Shown here: positions 47,871 to 56,907 of the stretch, piece by piece
Layout of the letters: the number at the start of each line of letters is the position of its first letter
How positions within the stretch are numbered: the first letter of the stretch is position 1
Origin: Phycisphaerae bacterium
Lineage (GTDB): Bacteria > Planctomycetota > Phycisphaerae > UBA1845
Direction of reading: 5' to 3'
Assembly: GCA_029260235.1 (NCBI GenBank)
Contig: JAJDDP010000040.1
Location: 1-62,757 of the forward strand
Length of the DNA stretch: 62,757 nucleotides
Position numbers and translations under genes: made by a program
The notes under the pieces: generated by a model
The model's database searches: none
The model's input: the letters and a program-made list of their open reading frames with translations, nothing else
Told to the model about the DNA's origin: nothing

Positions 47871-49622
47871 TTACAACATGCAGACATCTTGAATTGAGTG
47901 CCCGGTCTGGCGGGCTACGCTGATGGTGCTCGAAGGCGCCGCTGCTTTGCCAGGCTTGAAGAGAAGCAGCCGGTCCCGCAGCTCATTCGTGGCCACGATC
48001 CAGTCCGGGGCGACCTCTACCCGTCGAATCGTCTGCCCACCCGCTTCGTATCGACACCCGAAAGTATCCCCCATGACCCGGGCGTGGACAGCCGTGGTCG
48101 TGTCGGTGAATAGCAATCGCGATATACCTCCGGCAGTCACCGTGTGCAGTGACTCAGCCGGGCGACGGCTGCCGGCATGGATAATCTCAGCCTTGGCGTC
48201 CCCGTCCTGGGGCCAGCGAAGAATCTGGCCCTCGGCATTGCCCGCATACAGGCTTGTCGGCGTCGGACAGATGGCGGTGATCAGTGAATTGCTCCCCCGA
48301 TAGACCCGGACGCTCGATTCGGTCGGATCATTGGCTTCAAGAGCAAGTACATCCTGATCGATCGAACAGAAAATCCTCCCATCGAAGACCTGGGCACCAC
48401 GAACAGCCCGGGCTGACTCGGTCAGGCCGGGCAGTAGCGACTGCGGAACTTCAGGACTACTTCGCTCCCAACAAACCAGCCCCATTTCAGAATGCGTGGC
48501 ATAGATGCGATCTGCTGTAGCAGCCGCAGAGTTAAACCCGCCGCGGACATCCACATCCAGGGCCAGCGCGTAGCTGGTAATGACTGGCTCGTCTTGGTCA
48601 ATCACTTCGTAGACGCCGCGGGCCGCTCCAGCCAGCAGGCAGTTCAAACCGGCGTCATTCTTGCTCGCACGCACCGAGCGCACCAACCCTACAGCGCCAT
48701 CCATGGACACCCGTCGGGCCGGGCTTTCGGCAGAATCTGGAGCGTAGTAAAGCAACTCGTTCCCCGCAGCGACCACGATCCAGCGAGTCAACGACTCGCG
48801 CCCTGAGGCGGCGAAGAGGGCTTCATAGATCTGCCCGCGCTGAGATTCGGAGAAGCTCCGCACCAGATCAGGCATCTCGACGTCCGGCGACTCATCGGAC
48901 AACTGCTTGAGTCGGCCCAACAACTCCTCGACCTCGGCAAGGTGCTCTTGGCGGGCGTCCGACAACGCGCTGTTGAGCTGCTGCTCGACTGCGTGCTCGT
49001 GTTTCTTGCGAACGGCCTGTTCTTCAATCCGGCGAACTTGATCGAAGGCCGTCGATGCGAATTGAACCGTGGGCTGATCCTCGACGAGCAATCCTGCCTC
49101 AAAGCACGGACCAGCCACAGCCTCGGCTATGGCGTTTTGGATGTCGTCGCCGCCCCGAGCGAGAGACTCGATGGTTCGATCATGAGATAGCCGCACGACT
49201 GCGTTGCGGATTGTTGGTTCCAGGTGCTCTTGGAGGTCGAGACGATTGGCCAGGCGTTTGCTGCCGATCAGTTGGTCGCCCAAACTCATCAATTCGCCGC
49301 GATCTCCGGATGGTCGAACGCGAAGCCCAACGTGCACCTCAGCCTGGAAATGGTCCGATGTATTGACTCGCTCGAAAGTCCAGGAGAGGTTGATCGGCGC
49401 CGTGCGCACAAACAGCACAGCCGATACGCCCTCACCATCCAACTCGTTGCCCGGGGGGCAGACCACTTGGCCTGCGCCGTTTCGTGTAACCAGGGCGGTT
49501 ACGTCGGGCGGCAGGGTTATCCGCCGATTCAATAAACTGAATATCTCCGCGTCATCGACCAAGGCGGCGACCGCTTCAGGAGAAGCGAAGAACTTGGTGG
49601 GGTCAAATTTGCTAGATGCCAT
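47871..49622 (-). CDS. SPFH-like protein fused to a beta-propeller
   Basis: A 583-residue protein without membrane segments. The first 200 residues have SPFH/band-7 style features: ITLPPDVTALVTRNG, VVCPPGNELDG, SAVLFVRTAPINLSW, then a helical tail with EEQAVRKKHEHAVEQQL. After a coiled coil (about 200-260) the rest (about 270-580) has about six or seven blades of a beta-propeller (LYYAPDSAESPARRVSMDG, SLITAICPTPTSLYAGNAEGQILRW). SPFH proteins scaffold membranes beside PspA/ESCRT-III proteins in several bacteria. The propeller presumably binds a partner protein. The domain calls are by eye. Confidence 0.55.
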   Translation of the reverse strand: MASSKFDPTKFFASPEAVAALVDDAEIFSLLNRRITLPPDVTALVTRNGAGQVVCPPGNELDGEGVSAVLFVRTAPINLSWTFERVNTSDHFQAEVHVGLRVRPSGDRGELMSLGDQLIGSKRLANRLDLQEHLEPTIRNAVVRLSHDRTIESLARGGDDIQNAIAEAVAGPCFEAGLLVEDQPTVQFASTAFDQVRRIEEQAVRKKHEHAVEQQLNSALSDARQEHLAEVEELLGRLKQLSDESPDVEMPDLVRSFSESQRGQIYEALFAASGRESLTRWIVVAAGNELLYYAPDSAESPARRVSMDGAVGLVRSVRASKNDAGLNCLLAGAARGVYEVIDQDEPVITSYALALDVDVRGGFNSAAATADRIYATHSEMGLVCWERSSPEVPQSLLPGLTESARAVRGAQVFDGRIFCSIDQDVLALEANDPTESSVRVYRGSNSLITAICPTPTSLYAGNAEGQILRWPQDGDAKAEIIHAGSRRPAESLHTVTAGGISRLLFTDTTTAVHARVMGDTFGCRYEAGGQTIRRVEVAPDWIVATNELRDRLLLFKPGKAAAPSSTISVARQTGHSIQDVCML

Positions 49623-49666: not shown

Positions 49667-50785
49667 CTATTTTCCGGTTTCTTCAAATCGCTCATAACGA
49701 GCGAGGTCTGCTTCGTGTACGGATCGAGCCGTATCCTCAATCACTGAGCGTAAGTCTCTCATCGAAATCGGGCGAGGTTCCTGGCCGGCGACTGATTCCA
49801 TAAACGGAATGGTAGCTGCCCGCTGGCAGACGTTCCGGATGTCTGCTCCGCTATAACCTTCCAACTGGTCGCACAACTCGCCCAAGTCCATGTCATCGGC
49901 CACCGGCCTGTCGCCCAAATGGATCTCCAGCAGCTTGAACCGGGCCGGGGCGTCGGGGAGTCCAACGTACACCTTGGCGTCCAATCGACCGGGGCGCAAC
50001 ATCGCTTCGTCCAACATCCACGGCTTGTTGGTCGCCCCTACAAATAATAGGGCCCGACCATCCTTGCGATCAAAGCCTTCCAGCTCTTGAAGGATCTGGG
50101 GTACAACTCTTTGCATTACGGTGCTGCCACCACTTTTACGGCGGGGCACCAATGCCTCCACCTCATCAATGAAAATGACGGCTTTTTCCTCTGCCTTGGC
50201 GGCTTCAAACAGCTTGCGGATGTTTTGCTCAGCCTCGCCCACCCATTTGCTCAGTACCTGGGCGGGCGAAATCAGGAAGAAAGTAGCCCCGATTTCGTGA
50301 GCGATCGCCTTGGCCATCATGGTCTTGCCGGTGCCGGGCGGGCCGTACAACAAGACACCTCCGCCGATGGCGATGCCGTACTTGTGGGCCAACTCTGGAT
50401 GGGCGAATGGGTAAATCATCTTCAAGCGGATGTCCTGCTTAACATCCTCCAGCCCGGCGATGTCATCGAAACCAATGTTTGGTTTGTCCTTGACCACCCA
50501 GTCCGAGGTATTCGCCCCAGAATCATCCTCTTTCTCACTGGCTAGCCCCTTGCCCGAACGAGTCTTCCCTTTGCGGGCCTGGCAATCCTTGGCAAGGTCA
50601 ATCAATTCAGCTGCGATCTCCTCATGCTGCCGCCTCGCCTCTGGTGACTTGGTACCTTGAGCCAACTCAACCATGCACTCTGCGGCTTCGACCAGGTAGC
50701 TCCGGGCGGTCACGTAGTCGCCGCTCTTGTATGCGGTGACACCCTTGCCTTTTAGTCGCTCAAATGTCGCAAATGAAACTGCCAT
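49667..50785 (-). CDS. MIT-like domain AAA+ ATPase of Vps4/katanin type
   Basis: A 372-residue AAA+ ATPase. Residues 1-75 form a three-helix MIT-like domain with the TAYKSGDYVTARSYLVEAAE pattern, and a linker follows. The AAA domain has IGFDDIAGLEDVKQDI (104-119), Walker A GPPGTGKT (148-155), pore loop KWVGEAE (180-186), Walker B FIDE (205-208), sensor 1 GATNKPW (250-256), arginines R264 and R267, and GYSGADI (310-316). These are the hallmarks of the Vps4/katanin/spastin clade. In eukaryotes Vps4 disassembles ESCRT-III filaments. The clade is rare in bacteria, so this is a strong sign of an ESCRT-like system. Confidence 0.8.
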   Translation of the reverse strand: MAVSFATFERLKGKGVTAYKSGDYVTARSYLVEAAECMVELAQGTKSPEARRQHEEIAAELIDLAKDCQARKGKTRSGKGLASEKEDDSGANTSDWVVKDKPNIGFDDIAGLEDVKQDIRLKMIYPFAHPELAHKYGIAIGGGVLLYGPPGTGKTMMAKAIAHEIGATFFLISPAQVLSKWVGEAEQNIRKLFEAAKAEEKAVIFIDEVEALVPRRKSGGSTVMQRVVPQILQELEGFDRKDGRALLFVGATNKPWMLDEAMLRPGRLDAKVYVGLPDAPARFKLLEIHLGDRPVADDMDLGELCDQLEGYSGADIRNVCQRAATIPFMESVAGQEPRPISMRDLRSVIEDTARSVHEADLARYERFEETGK

Positions 50786-50820
50786 CGATACTCGCTCTGT
50801 TCTTTCTCAAGACCCTTAGG

Positions 50821-52419
50821 TCATCGCCCGATTTCCTGCATCGGCGGCCCCGAGTCGTTCTCAGCAGAGACGATCTGCCACAAGTTTCTAAACGCCTCAG
50901 CCTCAAGTCCAGCCGGCAATTTCGGCGGCTTGGTGGTCAAGAATACGGGACAGTCACCGCACTCGGCCAGCAAGTCGGGAATCCGCTTGACCGAGTCAGC
51001 CACGATACGAAGATCATCCCGCCGGGCGACCTCCTCTTGAACGTACCACAAGGGAACAGCCGTTGCCCACTGAGCGCAAATCATGGCGTCGGCCGGAAGA
51101 GTGGCTAGATCGACTGCACTGACGAATGCCGTCGCGTCCGGCTCCAACCCTGCGTTGGATCGCCCCGGGGCATCGAACAGCGTCCAAATAGCCAACCCCA
51201 CGAATAAGACCATTGAAACCGCCGTTCGGTTTGCTCCCTCCCGAAACGGCCACACGGCTGCAATGAGTACGCCGCTGAGAACCATGCACGCCCAGAGCAA
51301 GGGCAGCAGATCGGCGGCTGCCCCGTGAACGCGGTACATGCCGATGAACACCAGTGGCTGAACGATCATGCCTGCCAACAAGCATGCCGCCGCCGTTGAC
51401 CGACGCCAGGTAAGTAGGAGGGCCAACAAGACGAGCACGAACGCGGAAATCATAATTGGCATCCAGTCCAAATCGAGTTGGCCTCGAAGCCAGCGGAACT
51501 TGGATCGCAGGCTTGACCAGTCGCTGCCCATCAAGTGCCGAAACTGGGCACCACTGGCTTGCCAAACGACTCGCTCGATCTTGGCTGACACGCCGGCGTC
51601 CGCTTCGGGCAACGCCTGCCACGTCTGGTTGTGTTGTTCGATGTAGTTGTAAGCCGCCCCAGGCGCATCTTGCAGATAGAGGAAACCGAATGCATAACCA
51701 AACGGAATGGCTGTGCATGTTCCAGCCAGCAGCAGCCCTTTGACCTGTTGAACCTTCCTCAGCGAGGGCACCTTCTTCGCCAAGAAGTAGGCGGCCACGA
51801 TGAAAGGCCAAGCGATTGCGGTGGCTGGCCTCGTCGCCGAGATCATCCCCAGCAACAGGGCGGCCAGCAACAAGTCGACCCTTCTGGTGGTCCGCGTATA
51901 CTTGAACAACAGGTAAACCGAACCTGCAAACAGGGCCAACGAAGGGCCGTAAACTTCCGGGCCAAGCAGATTCTGCCAAATCCGATATTGGGCGCTCCAA
52001 ATCAGCGCTGACGCCGCCGCCAAGTAGGCGGGCACGCCCAGTCGAATCTGAAACAAGATCGCCAGCCCCAGCGTTGCGAGAACCGAAGCCCAGCAGCCAA
52101 GGGTTACCCCCCATGGAGGGTCGAGGCCCGGAATCAGGGTCAGCAGAAATCCCAGAGAAACCAAGATTGGATAACCCGGCGGATGGGCGATGCCCAGCGT
52201 AGCCGACGCTAACTGCAAGTCTCCGGCGTCGCCGAAACAAATTCCGCGAGGCAGTCGAGACCAAGTCACGACGCCCACCAGAACAAGGGCCACCAAAATG
52301 GGAATCCACGGTCTCCATCCTAACCTCGGCCAATTCTCAAAAGCGTTCGATTGCTGCGGCTTGGATTGCATGCAGAAACACTTTGCAGCTTGATTCAGCG
52401 ACCATGCTTCAGTCTTCAT
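50821..52419 (-). CDS. DUF2723-type membrane glycosyltransferase
   Basis: A 532-residue membrane protein with about ten membrane helices. The first extracytoplasmic loop holds CFGDAGDLQLASATLGIAHPPG, the signature of DUF2723 proteins of the GT-C superfamily. Such proteins transfer sugars from polyprenyl-phosphate donors outside the membrane. It sits 12 bases behind an ESCRT-III-like gene and 35 bases before the MIT-AAA gene, so it is in the same transcript. Its link to the membrane-remodelling genes is not evident. Confidence 0.75.
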   Translation of the reverse strand: MKTEAWSLNQAAKCFCMQSKPQQSNAFENWPRLGWRPWIPILVALVLVGVVTWSRLPRGICFGDAGDLQLASATLGIAHPPGYPILVSLGFLLTLIPGLDPPWGVTLGCWASVLATLGLAILFQIRLGVPAYLAAASALIWSAQYRIWQNLLGPEVYGPSLALFAGSVYLLFKYTRTTRRVDLLLAALLLGMISATRPATAIAWPFIVAAYFLAKKVPSLRKVQQVKGLLLAGTCTAIPFGYAFGFLYLQDAPGAAYNYIEQHNQTWQALPEADAGVSAKIERVVWQASGAQFRHLMGSDWSSLRSKFRWLRGQLDLDWMPIMISAFVLVLLALLLTWRRSTAAACLLAGMIVQPLVFIGMYRVHGAAADLLPLLWACMVLSGVLIAAVWPFREGANRTAVSMVLFVGLAIWTLFDAPGRSNAGLEPDATAFVSAVDLATLPADAMICAQWATAVPLWYVQEEVARRDDLRIVADSVKRIPDLLAECGDCPVFLTTKPPKLPAGLEAEAFRNLWQIVSAENDSGPPMQEIGR

Positions 52420-52431
52420 GCGACAGGCGAC

Positions 52432-53037
52432 TTACTTCTGCTTCTCGCCCTCGCGTTTCAACGAATCGAGTTCCGCACGCAGGCCTTCCAATCTGCCCAA
52501 TTCCTTTTGATGCTCAGCCTCAGTCTCCGCGTCGATCATGCGGTCGATTTCCTCGTCGCTGAGTGCATCAGAGGAAGCCATTTCCACATCCTGGGCAGCG
52601 ATGTCTTCCACACTGTCCAGGAAGAGATCCATCCGCTCCTCCATGGATTGAGACTGGGCCATCGCTTTTTCCCATTCGCCCTGGGTCTTGACCAAATCGG
52701 TCGCCCCGAACATCCGACCAATCTCGGCGGCCATGGTTCCCATCGCCTGGGTAAAGTCAGCCGACGCCTCTGCCTGTCGCTTGATCAGCAAGGCGTTCTT
52801 GACGGTCAACAGTTGCCGCTCAAGCATCTTGCGGATGGTGGCTGTCTTCTTGAGCGAATTGCGAATGAACGCATATTGACTCGTGTCGCCGATCTTCTTG
52901 GCGTGTTGGGCGTTCTTGATGAACTCATCTTGAAACTTGCCCTGTTCGCGAATGGACTTCTCGATCCGCCTGATGCCCTGGCGAACCTTGATGTCACGTT
53001 CGATTCGGCGTTCTTCTTCTGATTTAAACAATCCCAT
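52432..53037 (-). CDS. ESCRT-III/CHMP2-like protein with MIM1-like C-terminus
   Basis: A 201-residue helical protein that begins MGLFKSEEERR and is dominated by a long basic hairpin (about 10-95), with QYAFIRNSLKKTATIRKMLE and NALLIKRQAEA, then an alanine- and methionine-containing stretch (FTQAMGTMAAEIGRM) and an acidic tail (about 135-175). The shape and pattern match Vps2/CHMP2: basic N-terminal helices, an AMG-TM motif, then acidic end. Residues 183-194 read LEGLRAELDSLK, close to the MIM1 spacing L-x2-L-x3-L-x2-L-K that binds Vps4 MIT domains. A PspA relative is the alternative. Confidence 0.65.
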   Translation of the reverse strand: MGLFKSEEERRIERDIKVRQGIRRIEKSIREQGKFQDEFIKNAQHAKKIGDTSQYAFIRNSLKKTATIRKMLERQLLTVKNALLIKRQAEASADFTQAMGTMAAEIGRMFGATDLVKTQGEWEKAMAQSQSMEERMDLFLDSVEDIAAQDVEMASSDALSDEEIDRMIDAETEAEHQKELGRLEGLRAELDSLKREGEKQK

Positions 53038-53078
53038 CGGTCGTAATCCTGTCGAACATCCTTAGCCAAGTAATCTTC

Positions 53079-53399
53079 TTACCCAACTCTCGCAAGCCGC
53101 AACGCTCCTATGATGCCCGTCAAACCGGCAAATACCAGCAACAGCGATCGCGTTGACTTGTTGGCCAGTGGATGATCGGGCCAATCTTCTTGGTTCAACG
53201 CCTGACTTAACTGCCAGGCTAGCACGAAGCATCCACATGCAGCGAAGTCAACCACAAAATATTCCAGGCGGATCGCCGCTATCGCTAAAGCCCCACCCAC
53301 GAAGGCCATGATCATGCCCAACATCGGAGACGGCTTTTCTTCCTCGCCGGCCTCTTCTTGCCCCAGCTGCTCTTCTTGCTGTTCAGGCTGAGTGTCCAC
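53079..53399 (-). CDS. Small membrane protein with acidic N-terminus
   Basis: I chose the GTG at 53399 behind GGAGG, 4 bases after the upstream gene stops, giving 106 residues. An acidic cytoplasmic N-terminus (PEQQEEQLGQEEAGEEE) is followed by three membrane helices (about 28-45, 50-65 and 85-102). The family is not recognised. It lies between two ESCRT-III-like genes and so may anchor or receive the filament at the membrane. Confidence 0.65.
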   Translation of the reverse strand: MDTQPEQQEEQLGQEEAGEEEKPSPMLGMIMAFVGGALAIAAIRLEYFVVDFAACGCFVLAWQLSQALNQEDWPDHPLANKSTRSLLLVFAGLTGIIGALRLARVG

Positions 53400-53403
53400 C
53401 GCT

Positions 53404-54012
53404 TTATTCCTCCGCAGCCTGTTGTTCGCGGACTCGGCGGTCTGCTTCGTCAAAGGCTTCGGATTGATCGCTGATCATCCCTGTATCCATCCTGTCCCAC
53501 ACGTCCATCACGGTTTGGCCTGCTTGGCTGAGGGCTGCGATGCCTTCATCCATCTCGCCGCCGATAGCCAGCACGTCGTCCAGTCGCTGCTGGTACATGT
53601 CAGCCTTGATGGCGTCATTTTCGATCAGCTTCCCCAGCTTCAAAATATCCTTCTCGCTGATCAACCCCAGCTTCGAGCCGGTTGCCTTGGCCCGGTCGGC
53701 GTTCTCCCTCAGCATCCGCAGTCTCGACACGGTCAACATCTCTTTGCTGCGGATATTCAACTGCCGGGCCATCATCAGCTGTTCGGTGGTCTTTAGCTCA
53801 AACTCCTGGGCCAAGATGCGGCGCACTTCGGGAATTTTTTCCGAAACACCTTTCTCGAATAGCTCCTGCTTACCCGTAGCCAACTTGGTGATGCGGTTCA
53901 CCAAACGATTCCGCTCTTTCTCCAGCAGCAGCTCCTGACGTCGGAGTTCCGAGCGGGTCATATCCGACAACGGCTTCTTGCGCTTGGTGAACCAATCGAA
54001 TAAGGACAGCAT
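53404..54012 (-). CDS. ESCRT-III/Snf7-like protein
   Basis: A 202-residue helical protein. It starts with a hydrophobic/aromatic segment (LSLFDWF), as Snf7/CHMP4 proteins do for membrane insertion, then a long basic hairpin (about 20-110, EKERNRLVNRITKLATGKQE and MARQLNIRSKEML) with a Gly at the turn, and an acidic C-terminal part (about 130-202, MYQQRLDDVLAI, FDEADRRVREQQAAEE). Predicted as an ESCRT-III-superfamily member by architecture, not by a signature motif; a PspA/Vipp1-type protein is the alternative. It lies in an operon with other such genes. Confidence 0.5.
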   Translation of the reverse strand: MLSLFDWFTKRKKPLSDMTRSELRRQELLLEKERNRLVNRITKLATGKQELFEKGVSEKIPEVRRILAQEFELKTTEQLMMARQLNIRSKEMLTVSRLRMLRENADRAKATGSKLGLISEKDILKLGKLIENDAIKADMYQQRLDDVLAIGGEMDEGIAALSQAGQTVMDVWDRMDTGMISDQSEAFDEADRRVREQQAAEE

Positions 54013-54088
54013 AGATTCTGTTCAATCCATCAATACCAAAAGCATTTCGCCGCCGTTGGTGTGTTCCACGATGAGCCGCAGACCGATT

Positions 54089-55552
54089 CTACGCGCCTTC
54101 TGGATCTGCTGTAGGCGGCTTTTCAGGAGCAGAAGATTCCGGCTTTTCCGGCTCGAAGGTCACGTTTCTGGATTGCTCCTCCGGTGCGGCCGGTGCACGC
54201 GCTGGCGGCTCCTTCGCAACCCGGGCGGCAGGAGCTTCTTGAGCAGTTTCAACCTCATCGAATTCCTTGAGGATAGCCAACTCTTCATCGTTGCTCATCA
54301 CTTCACCAAGGCCTGCCTCAAGACTGCCCACCATATCCGCGTCGGCCTTTAGACTCTCTAGCATCTCCTCGGCGTGGACGGCGTTCTCGGTCAGCTCTTC
54401 TGTATCGGGCAGCTGAGCCATTTCGCCTTGTTGGATCAACGTCAGGTTATGAATGTTGGTGCTCAAAATGTTGATCTGCTGATTGAGCATGTTGGCCGTC
54501 GTATTTTGCCGACCTATGTCCTTGCGCAATTGGGCCAATTGGCTGGCCAATCGGCGCTTTACCACCGACGAGGTGGTACTCTTGCCGTCATCTAGCATTT
54601 TGGCTTCTTTGACTTCCAACTTGCCGATGTCTTCATAGATGCGGTCTCGCCGTTGGCTCAACCCCGCGCGGCGTTCAGCCAGCATGTTTATCTTTTCGGC
54701 TTCGTCACCCTCTTTGGCGAACAGCGACCGAATCCGATCTACCATATTCATCGATGCTTTCTCCTGCGTCGAAGCGGCTGCGCCGCGGTACATCAACAAC
54801 GCGCCGGATTTCTTTGTCAACCTCAACTCCGAATCACCCTGCGCTATTTGTTCAAATGCCTGGTTCACCATGGGGACAGCCAAGCCCAAGTGCTCCGCCA
54901 CGCCTTCGGCATCGAGCCCACCGAGCAGGAGATCCGCACCACGCCGCTCAATCTCCTTTACGACTCGCTGGCTCTTCTGGGCAACGTCCTCGGGATCAAA
55001 CATAGCCAACACTTGCGGTGGGGCGTCGTCCGTCGTTCCCGATACCTTCCAGCCGCCGTCAGCCGCAGGCTCGATGAGGACCAGCGTCAGGTTGGGCATG
55101 TCCAGCCGGGCGGTGCGGGCTTCCTCTGAAAACCCGCTCGGGCTGCACACGCCGACCACATGGGGCACCTTGGCATCACCGACCAGCGAACGCACATGCT
55201 CTGCAAGTTCCCCCAAGCCGACGGGCGGCATCGATGATTCATTGCCAGCCGCCAAGTGATCCAAGGGGGCTAACGCGGACGCAATCGCTGCACCCGTCCG
55301 CCGCTTCCCGAAGAACCAACGCCGCTCGAAACCCGTAACAGCCAGCCGGCGATTTCTTGGCATCTGCTTGAGCAGGGCGCGGTCATGGCGCCGGTGGCGG
55401 GCCATCATAGCCCGCAGCGGGAGTTCCTCGTCATGACGCGCTGTCTGCCAGATAGATCCACGAAGCAAACCGCCCTTGGCTCGCTCGATGTTGGCTTCCA
55501 CGCCGGAGAGAAACTCGGTCTCGATCTGTAATGCCCGCTCGGCGTCACTCAT
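54089..55552 (-). CDS. Putative winged-helix plus ESCRT-III-like fusion protein
   Basis: From ATG 55552, overlapping the upstream stop as ATGA, it is 487 residues. Residues 1-195 hold an alpha-beta domain I do not recognise (VPHVVGVCSPSGF, LTLVLIEPAADGGWKV). Residues about 195-256 form a winged-helix-like unit (GVAEHLGLAVPMVNQAFEQI, LTKKSGALLMYRG). The core (about 285-420) is ESCRT-III-like, with RRAGLSQRRDRIYEDIGKLE, VVKRRLASQLAQLRKDI and MLNQQINILSTNIHNL. The tail is Pro/Ala-rich. Winged helices followed by an ESCRT-III core recall eukaryotic CHMP7. Confidence 0.55.
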   Translation of the reverse strand: MSDAERALQIETEFLSGVEANIERAKGGLLRGSIWQTARHDEELPLRAMMARHRRHDRALLKQMPRNRRLAVTGFERRWFFGKRRTGAAIASALAPLDHLAAGNESSMPPVGLGELAEHVRSLVGDAKVPHVVGVCSPSGFSEEARTARLDMPNLTLVLIEPAADGGWKVSGTTDDAPPQVLAMFDPEDVAQKSQRVVKEIERRGADLLLGGLDAEGVAEHLGLAVPMVNQAFEQIAQGDSELRLTKKSGALLMYRGAAASTQEKASMNMVDRIRSLFAKEGDEAEKINMLAERRAGLSQRRDRIYEDIGKLEVKEAKMLDDGKSTTSSVVKRRLASQLAQLRKDIGRQNTTANMLNQQINILSTNIHNLTLIQQGEMAQLPDTEELTENAVHAEEMLESLKADADMVGSLEAGLGEVMSNDEELAILKEFDEVETAQEAPAARVAKEPPARAPAAPEEQSRNVTFEPEKPESSAPEKPPTADPEGA

Positions 55553-55830
55553 TCCTTCATTCGTTCCGAACTTAGTCCGCTCTGACCAGACAACGACTCG
55601 CCGCAACGAGCACAGTAGTTCGCCCCCGCCCGATTGCCAAAGCGACATTCATCACTTGAGCATCGCCGCGTGGCTAGCGTGCCTGAACTCGTTTTGGGCC
55701 GCTGGGCATTCTTACTCGCACTCGATCTCGAGCCCATCACCTCGACGAGTCCGATGACAACCGCAAGCCCGACGCCAGCTACGCCAACGAGCACGGCCAG
55801 AATGATCAACGATTCGCCGGCGATGGCCAT
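55549..55830 (-). CDS. Single-span membrane protein with C-terminal zinc ribbon
   Basis: A 93-residue protein. A membrane helix (about 8-30, ILAVLVGVAGVGLAVVIGL) leads into a cytoplasmic part with four cysteines, C57, C62, C73 and C76 (CSSDECRFGNRAGANYCARCG), a zinc ribbon. Small zinc-ribbon membrane proteins accompany PspA-type proteins in Bacillus (the ydj operon), which suggests it recruits the ESCRT-III-like proteins. It overlaps the next gene by 4 bases. Confidence 0.7.
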   Translation of the reverse strand: MAIAGESLIILAVLVGVAGVGLAVVIGLVEVMGSRSSASKNAQRPKTSSGTLATRRCSSDECRFGNRAGANYCARCGESLSGQSGLSSERMKE

Positions 55831-55848
55831 AGGATCCCCACACCAATT

Positions 55849-56907
55849 CTAAACAGCCTCAGACCGCAACTTAGCCCCGCAGAAGATGCAGTACAGATCT
55901 TCGCTATGCACGAACGCCCGGCAAGAAGCACACCGCGGGATTTCAGCAGCGATCTGATGCCCACAGTGAATGCAAAACTGATCGCCGCCACCAACCACAC
56001 CCTTGCACGAAGTACAGCGATGACGACCGCTGACCCTCTGAGCATCCGTTGGCGTGACTGCCTGCGGAATCGGCGGCGGCGACTTCTGCCGACCACCGGC
56101 TTCGATCATGTCCAACATCTCTTGGGCCGACGCCAACCGCCGATCCAGGCGGGTATAGCTTCGTCGAAAAGTCTCGTCCAGGCTCTTGGGCACGTCAGAA
56201 CGAAGGGATCCGGGCAACTCCGTACCGCTAGGCCGTTCACCCATCAACAATTCAAACAGCACAATGCTACAAGAATAAAGGTCGCTCCGGGCATCAACCT
56301 CGCCACCTTGCTTCTGCTCGGGGGCCATGTAGGCGATGGTGCCTGAGATGTCGTTTCCATCTTCGGTCAGCATGCTTCCTGACTGCATGATCGAGACCGT
56401 GGTCATGTCGCCTGTCCGACCCAACCCGAAGTCGGTCACCTTGACCGCCTTAGCCGAAACAGTGGCGATCTGATCCAGGGGATGCTGGATCAAAATGTTG
56501 GCCGGTTTGATGTCGCGATGAATCAAGCCCGAACCGTGAGCGGCCGTCAAGGCATCGAGCAATCCACACATGATCTCAACGACGGCTGGTATGGGCAGGC
56601 CAGTGGCATTGGCATCGATCACCTGCCGCAGCGAAGGGCCGTCAACATATTCCATGATCAGGTATGGCGGATCCGCATAGGGGTCCAAATCGACGGCCCG
56701 GACGATGTTCGGATGTTTCAAGCCATGAATGGCAACCCCCTCGCGCTGCAGGTTGCGCACATACTGAGGATCGGTCGGAACCTTGATAGCCACATGCTTA
56801 TCGAACATGTGATGGCGAGCCCGCCAAACTTGACCAAAGCTGCCCTGGCCCACCTGCTCTTCGAGCAGGTAGTTGTTAATTCGATCTCCGATTTGGGGGC
56901 TTGACAT
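55849..56907 (-). CDS. Ser/Thr protein kinase with two C-terminal zinc ribbons
   Basis: A 352-residue cytoplasmic Hanks-type kinase. It has VGQGSFGQV (19-27), Lys42 (AIKVP), HRDIKPAN (130-137; Asp132), DFG (159-161) and APE (195-197), so it is predicted active. Residues 298-343 form two zinc ribbons (C298, C301, C312, C315 and C326, C329, C340, C343). There is no membrane segment. It is the gene before the zinc-ribbon membrane protein, so it may phosphorylate components of the membrane-remodelling set. Confidence 0.9.
   Translation of the reverse strand: MSSPQIGDRINNYLLEEQVGQGSFGQVWRARHHMFDKHVAIKVPTDPQYVRNLQREGVAIHGLKHPNIVRAVDLDPYADPPYLIMEYVDGPSLRQVIDANATGLPIPAVVEIMCGLLDALTAAHGSGLIHRDIKPANILIQHPLDQIATVSAKAVKVTDFGLGRTGDMTTVSIMQSGSMLTEDGNDISGTIAYMAPEQKQGGEVDARSDLYSCSIVLFELLMGERPSGTELPGSLRSDVPKSLDETFRRSYTRLDRRLASAQEMLDMIEAGGRQKSPPPIPQAVTPTDAQRVSGRHRCTSCKGVVGGGDQFCIHCGHQIAAEIPRCASCRAFVHSEDLYCIFCGAKLRSEAV

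Follow-up and report, generated by a model that had tools for sequence, protein, structure and literature searches.

A conserved planctomycete gene cluster combines an ESCRT-III family protein with a putative Vps4/CdvC-like ATPase

A run of genes on the minus strand of contig JAJDDP010000040.1 from a Phycisphaerae bacterium (UBA1845), at positions 49667-55552, probably encodes a bacterial membrane-remodelling machine of the ESCRT-III/Vps4 type (ESCRT, endosomal sorting complexes required for transport). The stretch analysed here, called the window in the following, is 62,757 nucleotides (nt) long. The run comprises an AAA ATPase, ATP1, and three helical proteins that we named A, B and C, of which C belongs to the Snf7/ESCRT-III family. 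ESCRT-III together with Vps4 has been described as archaeal and eukaryotic (PMC10936438) and bacteria as having no clear Vps4 homologue (review, PMC7615534). This pairing, described as absent from bacteria, appears to be present in a conserved planctomycete cluster, the core of which consists of genes for a Ser/Thr kinase, A, B, C, the ATPase and an SPFH protein. The main features are:

52432..53037, minus strand: protein C, ESCRT-III/Snf7-family subunit of 201 amino acids (aa), by profile, Pfam and Foldseek evidence
52456..52491, minus strand: leucine-rich segment of the last helix of C, aa 183-194, with MIM1-like spacing (MIM, MIT-interacting motif); putative ATPase-binding site
49667..50785, minus strand: ATP1, putative Vps4/CdvC-like AAA ATPase, 372 aa, by Pfam and NCBIfam
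50561..50785, minus strand: MIT-like N-terminal domain of ATP1, aa 1-75, by profile match to N-domain chains of VPS4, SKD1 and chitin synthase
49679..49780, minus strand: Vps4_C segment of ATP1, Pfam match above cut-off
54089..55552, minus strand: protein A, 487 aa from the start used by its homologues, open reading frame (ORF)
54758..55552, minus strand: W, conserved N-terminal domain of protein A, by alignment
54089..54757, minus strand: E, C-terminal half of protein A, predicted to be ESCRT-III-like by AlphaFold2 and Foldseek
53404..54012, minus strand: protein B, 202 aa, helical, possibly another ESCRT-III-like subunit, by profile-profile match to E

Results

Protein C belongs to the Snf7/ESCRT-III family

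We regard the family placement of C as settled because it rests on diverse relatives and not on a single sequence or a narrow set. Searches with C profiles covered Planctomycetota genomes, and when 48 diverse members were compared with Pfam one by one, 39 of them matched Snf7 (PF03357) at E ≤ 10, the best at 2.7e-6, while the runner-up among the families listed had 7 matches. A profile built from 48 relatives and searched against 177,635 distinct PDB sequences gave 7 matches at E ≤ 10, all of them ESCRT-III proteins (SNF7, CHMP3 and CHMP2A), with a modest best E-value of 0.0028 for SNF7. As an independent test, a scan of 392 planctomycete genomes with nothing but the Snf7 model gave 46 places in 45 genomes at E ≤ 0.01, of which 35, including all of the best 24, lie at C loci. 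The curated Snf7 cut-off was passed in 4 of the 392 genomes, all four at C loci; the control Sulfolobus acidocaldarius, an archaeon with ESCRT-III, matches Snf7 yet stays under this cut-off.

The structure predicted for C by AlphaFold2 has helices at residues 7-49, 52-110, 114-129, 131-153 and 161-200, the first two of which form a long alpha1-alpha2 hairpin. The mean predicted local distance difference test score (pLDDT) is 73, with values of 68-90 in the hairpin up to residue 100. In a Foldseek search of 350,542 PDB chains, ranks 1-6 were taken by CHMP2A/CHMP3, CdvB (ranks 3 and 4), Loki CHMP4-7 and CHMP1B; the ESCRT-III superfamily makes up 24 of the best 50 of 234 rows. With the window protein split at residue 110, the net charge is +10 in the N-terminal part and -15 in the rest, and the same signs were found in all aligned members (N part positive in 48/48, rest negative in 48/48).

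The last helix of C is rich in leucine. A spacing like that of MIM1, acidic-x2-hydrophobic-x3-hydrophobic-x2-hydrophobic, occurs within the last 35 aa of 29 of the 48 members against 3.1 in shuffled sequences, and its hydrophobic part alone in 40 of 48 against 9.0; the window protein fits the hydrophobic part only and not the full pattern. Any amphipathic helix could account for part of this excess, and the helix may represent an ATPase-binding motif. A C homologue on a draft contig (L056:1501-2097) carries one in-frame TAA.

Several results weigh against this placement. The window protein itself reached only E 0.39 and 10.8 bits with the Snf7 model, below the cut-off of 27.3, and the scan of the window genome gave zero Snf7 matches. 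The narrow set of 41 C relatives matched CodY 15 times (best 0.0018) and Snf7 13 times (best 0.28), 21 of the 56 C-bearing genomes are without a Snf7 match at E ≤ 0.01, and 11 of the 46 Snf7 places lie away from C. On the structural side, the pLDDT of C falls to about 55-61 over residues 101-160 (the later helices alpha3-alpha5), the predicted TM-scores (pTM) of the C and E models are 0.54 and 0.52, and for neither did Foldseek return an E-value <0.001, the TM-scores being modest and the root-mean-square deviations large. C also matched neither E nor B when profiles were compared. The single C sequence had no match in the PDB, a narrow C profile gave nothing either, and an early profile comparison based on narrow alignments, which linked C to neither A nor B, was set aside.

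The AAA ATPase resembles Vps4 and CdvC

By its sequence, ATP1 is a Vps4/CdvC-like AAA ATPase. It carries the motifs GPPGTGKT, KWVGEAE, GATNKPW and GYSGADI, and Pfam finds one classic-type AAA domain (PF00004) in a single stretch at 1.9e-40, AAA_lid_3 at 1.2e-8 and Vps4_C at 8e-5. All three exceed their cut-offs, Vps4_C with 23.0 bits in the protein scan and 25.9 bits in the genome scan against a cut-off of 21.3. ATP1 is the sole Vps4_C match in the window genome at E ≤ 0.001, and among 14 control genomes only those of Methanocaldococcus jannaschii and S. acidocaldarius match this model. The best NCBIfam model is CdvC (4.3e-70, residues 15-369 of 372), which at 236.5 bits stays far below its equivalog cut-off of 650. 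The clade assignment is weakened by the CDC48 (1.2e-69) and PAN models, which follow CdvC closely, and by the related ATPases, for which PAN, CDC48 or FtsH models score best (FtsH in one relative) and of which none of the 7 scanned passes the Vps4_C cut-off (best 21.0 versus 21.3). NCBIfam scores do not decide the AAA clade.

The N-terminal domain of ATP1 appears MIT-like and is not proven to be MIT. Among the best 60 of 98 matches to a profile of 32 members are chains of VPS4A, VPS4B, SKD1 and chitin synthase, which align with about 60 of its 77 positions (E 0.002-0.3). These chains we take to be MIT domains. Within the same best 60, ten rows cover at least 55 positions, eight of them VPS4/SKD1 or chitin synthase and two de novo designs. 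Against an MIT assignment stand the Pfam MIT model (PF04212), which finds no match in the window genome, and TPR proteins, which match one hairpin of the domain with far better E-values. MIT is likewise absent from all 16 families found for 20 N-domains and from the best 25 of 32 families for 32 N-domains; a narrow N-domain profile pointed to TPR and not to MIT, and TPR_2 is a weak Pfam match.

The window genome has a single ATPase of this kind; another AAA match lies at a different place, in a frame of 695 aa. Two such ATPases occur in 7 of the 20 loci that come from outside the class, and in the four read in detail (L083, L088, L097 and L100) the second lies between the small helical proteins and C. 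Three of these second copies are:

L083:8577-9758, strand not given: second AAA ATPase with a putative MIT-like N-domain
L088:8452-9672, strand not given: second AAA ATPase with a putative MIT-like N-domain
L097:10550-11815, strand not given: second AAA ATPase with a putative MIT-like N-domain

A further ORF (L089:6759-7850) matches the N-domain part of the ATPase profile only; it may be a stand-alone MIT-like protein or a disrupted copy.

Protein A contains a half with predicted ESCRT-III topology, to which B is related by profile comparison

The C-terminal half of protein A, E, is predicted to have ESCRT-III topology, with a short helix (residues 5-13), a long hairpin (18-60 and 64-113) and two more helices (119-154 and 158-174), the hairpin being modelled at pLDDT 94-98 over residues 21-110. 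In Foldseek, ranks 1-6 of the E model went to Asgard ESCRT-IIIB, CHMP2A and Vipp1, and the ESCRT-III superfamily accounts for 30 of the best 50 of 381 rows. Sequence searches with E gave no ESCRT-III match of note, and its profile found designed coiled coils at the top of the PDB matches and CdvB only at E 1.7, which speaks against the structural assignment. E is present as a single copy in the window genome; its net charge is +4 before and -20 after residue 113, and in the family the N part is positive in 22 of 29 members and the rest negative in 29 of 29.

Within the window's order A is one protein, while W and E are separate neighbouring genes in several distant planctomycete loci and joined in another (L099). 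W is conserved in the alignment of relatives and gave no PDB or Pfam match of note; by eye, its end looks like a winged helix. CHMP7 is a B-type ESCRT-III protein with an N-terminal extension, and the layout of protein A, in which W precedes the ESCRT-III-like E, is comparable, with the difference that the winged helix of W is read by eye only and no relation to ESCRT-II is shown.

Protein B is a relative of E and is without an independent ESCRT-III placement. Profile-profile comparison of B (18 rows) with E gave a probability of 85.7 and E 5.4e-6 over 141 columns, rising to 95.3 and 2.4e-8 when five rows chosen by eye were added. Neither E nor B matches C in this test, which suggests that it does not merely join any coiled coils but also leaves C unconnected with E and B. 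An early B-to-A comparison from narrow alignments had been weak (probability 28, E 6e-4) and was discarded. PDB and Pfam profile searches with B gave no direct match to ESCRT-III, a narrow B profile found nothing, and, as a point against ESCRT-III relationship, the B profile finds an ATG16 coiled coil. The net charge of B is +9 and -10 on the two sides of residue 105, and these signs hold for 23/23 and 23/23 members. Two adjacent B copies occur in L084, L087 and L088.

A sequence-only reading of the window had proposed an MIT-bearing, Vps4-type ATPase together with three ESCRT-III-like proteins. Its ATPase motifs, the minus-strand run and the three helical proteins, basic in the N-terminal part and acidic further on, were confirmed from the ORFs and charge counts. 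The proposal holds for C by profile, Pfam and Foldseek and for the 487-aa protein by predicted structure, while B is tied to E only. For the ATPase, the CdvC model and the Vps4_C match agree with it; the Pfam MIT model does not, so that MIT-likeness consists in the profile matches described above. Of the Snf7, PspA_IM30 and MIT profiles that it had named, Snf7 is matched by the C family with the window protein under the cut-off, and MIT and PspA_IM30 are unmatched.

These data also bear on the explanation that the helical proteins are unrelated coiled coils encoded beside an AAA chaperone of TPR-like type and share no more than a general helical character with ESCRT. The TPR matches of the N-domain, the coiled coils found with the E and B profiles and the Foldseek matches of the models to SMC, YscO and BAR chains would all fit. 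This explanation does not account for a C profile that matches ESCRT-III chains only, for a blind Snf7 scan that lands on C loci, for the eight of ten long N-domain matches to VPS4/SKD1 or chitin synthase or for the conserved order of six genes, and we consider it very unlikely.

The cluster is conserved among related genomes and patchy across the phylum

Of 59 other related genomes, 49 carry C, at 66-87% identity (50 of 60 including the window's own). Fifteen long loci of the window's order were selected from the 50 C-bearing related genomes, and in 12 of them the genes for the kinase, A, B, C, the ATPase and the SPFH protein follow in this order; two of the exceptions have no ATPase or SPFH gene within reach (L111 and L113), and one is without kinase, A and B (L116). 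The run is far from chance, because C is kept in 49 of the 59 related genomes and the gene order is kept across families. The two genes that complete the conserved block are:

55849..56907, minus strand: Ser/Thr protein kinase that carries a double zinc ribbon and opens the conserved block, by Pkinase (1.6e-37) and synteny
47871..49622, minus strand: SPFH (Band_7)-like protein, 583 aa, by Band_7 (8.5e-4, 19.9 bits versus a cut-off of 23.6) and synteny

The synteny across planctomycetes that the sequence-only reading had pointed to as informative is borne out in these 12 of 15 long loci, and its four genes are real. Its inventory had missed the N-terminal W domain, the SPFH protein, the kinase, the second ATPase found elsewhere and two membrane-protein ORFs, and the conserved unit is larger than the four genes it listed.

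A second sample comprised 23 named loci from planctomycete metagenome-assembled genomes, several contigs of which stop too early for the context to be judged. All six genes are present in 9 of them and an AAA relative lies near C on the same strand in 17, the count against being limited by the early contig ends. One locus has no same-strand AAA relative within 8 kb (L036) and two have none within 3-4 kb (L046, L052); A and B are absent from the 10 kb before C in L040 and L044. Over the phylum, the C profile found 56 of the 392 genomes drawn, the window's own included. The spread is patchy, because the same-class genomes listed in this draw are without a C match. The 20 loci from outside the class were sorted by profiles iterated on the same ORF set, which can drift; they contain an ATPase relative in 18 cases, the E domain in 16 and the SPFH protein in 10. 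The ATPase relative of one locus is an N-domain only, at the contig end (L090), and L096 and L099 contain no ATPase relative. A fuller block was seen at L088:3510-12142, with SPFH, W, E, two B copies, the second ATPase, C and the first ATPase. In two distant lineages a Ser/Thr kinase with an N-terminus like that of the window kinase, by eye, lies near the block (L083:14314-15753 and L100:4246-5544).

ESCRT-III plus Vps4 has elsewhere been described from archaea and eukaryotes (PMC10936438), and a binning error that placed archaeal DNA in a bacterial genome might be suspected. The window holds bacterial genes for RNase Y and for ClpS-like, Rrf2-like and LipA-like proteins (named from translations), and misbinning is contradicted by the presence of the system in the 49 related genomes and by the length of the contigs that carry two of the loci (3.9 and 4.3 Mb), so that we regard its probability as negligible.

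The sequence sets were composed as follows. Alignment A3 omits L049 for its aberrant length; A7 combines 11 of the 23 named relatives with distant ones, the latter limited to a single copy from each genome; A8 omits L034, L036, L041, L043 and one partial hit, and A11 omits the same four. The B rows of alignment A9 include five chosen by position and look (L053, L083, L097 and two of L100). For alignment A10, 7 of the 19 A4 relatives were taken, and three distant ORFs that lack the P-loop string were passed over.

FtsZ and PspA in the same genomes

The window genome, which is 94.9% complete, gave no tubulin/FtsZ match in a scan to which 13 of 14 controls responded, and there was none in the 56 C-bearing genomes. 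These absences would suit a true ESCRT-like machine that serves cell division in FtsZ-less bacteria, as archaeal Cdv does. Against this, a tubulin/FtsZ match is present in only 7 of the 392 planctomycete genomes, none of them with C, and of the 385 genomes without a match 329 are also without C (Fisher p 0.6, relatedness ignored). A missing FtsZ is no predictor of the system, because 329 genomes lack an FtsZ match and C alike, and a role in division is not shown by the missing FtsZ, because FtsZ is missing almost phylum-wide. Besides the CdvC-like ATPase, no likeness to a division protein was detected among the nine neighbouring proteins scanned, and a machine dedicated to division seems to us fairly unlikely. 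Three of the seven tubulin/FtsZ matches (G216, G268 and G320) fall in one genus of the window's class.

A different explanation is a membrane-stress system of the PspA/Vipp1 type with an unrelated AAA chaperone, the helical proteins being divergent relatives of PspA. PspA is a member of the ESCRT-III superfamily (PMC8281802), some bacterial PspA loci encode an SPFH protein (PMC10936438), and Vipp1 or PspA account for 14 of the best 50 of the 381 Foldseek rows of E. C, however, matches Snf7, and PspA_IM30 was neither among the 22 families that 41 C members matched nor among the best 25 of 75 families for 48 members. The window genome has no PspA_IM30 (PF04012) match, and 28 of the 56 C-bearing genomes have a PspA match elsewhere, which separates the two systems; because of these 28 genomes, the system does not replace PspA. 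With the Vps4_C match of the ATPase above its cut-off as a further point against it, the PspA explanation is quite improbable.

Discussion

We consider an ESCRT-III/Vps4-type machine the probable product of the block, and it could work as follows. The SPFH protein and the W domain may mark the membrane site, and the E half of A together with B would initiate a filament at the cytoplasmic face of the inner membrane, which C would join later as an A-type-like subunit (compare CHMP2/CHMP3). The leucine-rich C-terminal helix of C might recruit the ATPase through its MIT-like N-domain, and extraction of subunits by the ATPase would let the filament tighten or turn over, so that the membrane would be bent, cut or resealed. 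The kinase may regulate assembly; human ESCRT-III is phosphorylated by ULK3 (PMC4475061), which the kinase in the block recalls. In a bolder version, a complete, eukaryote-like machine with early E and B, late C, one or two MIT-bearing ATPases, an SPFH marker and a kinase would perform scission in FtsZ-less planctomycetes, for division or for internal membranes, as a multi-subunit bacterial ESCRT that arose independently of archaea or by ancient exchange. This version seems unlikely.

The organization resembles that of Asgard ESCRT-III (A and B types) with Vps4 in that distinct subunits and a Vps4-like ATPase lie in one block, that CHMP2A (A type) heads the Foldseek matches of C and Asgard ESCRT-IIIB those of E, and that C ends in a leucine/isoleucine-rich helix, as in Asgard Vps2/24/46, where similar leucine-to-isoleucine variants occur in this helix (PMC7240154). 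The planctomycete block differs in its bacterial host, in its kinase and SPFH genes and in its very distant sequences; no ESCRT-I/II domain was found among the nine neighbouring proteins scanned, the genome not being searched for these. With archaeal Cdv (CdvA, CdvB and CdvC) it shares the CdvC-like ATPase and the CdvB matches of C, whereas CdvB has been described as having no MIM1 (PMC7240154) and planctomycete C ends in a leucine-rich helix; no link of the planctomycete block to division is shown. An SPFH protein is also encoded with the ESCRT genes of archaeal Meth_adaptin loci (PMC10936438), which differ from the present block in that no adaptin or GOLD domain was found among its nine neighbouring proteins scanned. 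Bacterial PspA/Vipp1 has the superfamily and the hairpin topology in common with the planctomycete proteins and differs from them in the Snf7 matches of C and in the Vps4-type ATPase encoded beside it.

Another precedent among bacteria is a study that describes VPS4-like ATPases in several lineages and some Snf7 homologues, part of which share an operon with other AAA ATPases (PMC11237479). These systems differ in that, beside the VPS4-like ATPases, snf7 is reported as displaced by an unrelated TPR/6TM gene, the transferred ATPases being said to lack snf7, and in that the Snf7 operons carry other genes; the main text names planctomycetes 0 times. We found no report of a planctomycete ESCRT-III/Vps4 operon in a literature whose coverage was thin for subscription papers, and the accessible parts of PMC7203096, PMC11804906 and PMC5840170 do not report it. 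A conserved bacterial operon with ESCRT-III and Vps4 would change the picture of the origin and spread of these machines. How planctomycetes form their membrane invaginations and internal vesicles is described as unknown (PMC5147048 and PMC6524685), and the operon supplies specific candidate genes for division or internal-membrane formation in FtsZ-less planctomycetes.

Operon structure and neighbouring genes

In the direction of transcription, the minus-strand genes are those for the kinase, a zinc-ribbon membrane protein, A, B, a small membrane protein, C, a TMEM260-like protein, the AAA ATPase and the SPFH-like protein. A single operon of all nine genes is likely from the coordinates, because the intergenic gaps in the block are ≤76 bases and two gene pairs overlap. 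Three of the genes lie outside the conserved core:

55549..55830, minus strand: small zinc-ribbon membrane protein, DZR 0.0072, under cut-off
53079..53453, minus strand: small membrane protein overlapping the end of B, open reading frame
50821..52419, minus strand: TMEM260-like membrane protein between C and ATP1, PF11028 at 5.2e-9

The gene for the zinc-ribbon protein overlaps the start of protein A by 4 bases and has relatives in just 4 of the 23 named loci (L031, L032, L034 and L050); an alternative in-frame ATG at 55648 would extend protein A to 519 aa. For the small membrane protein, no relative besides the window's own was found in the named loci surveyed. In the family of the SPFH protein, Band_7 is matched by 6 of 13 members (best 2.3e-6) and a WDR36-type propeller by 1 of 13, and the C-terminal part is, by eye, a possible beta-propeller. 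Relatives of the TMEM260-like protein adjoin C only in L012 and, partly, in L047 among the named loci, and this protein is probably a lineage-specific neighbour and not part of the machine.

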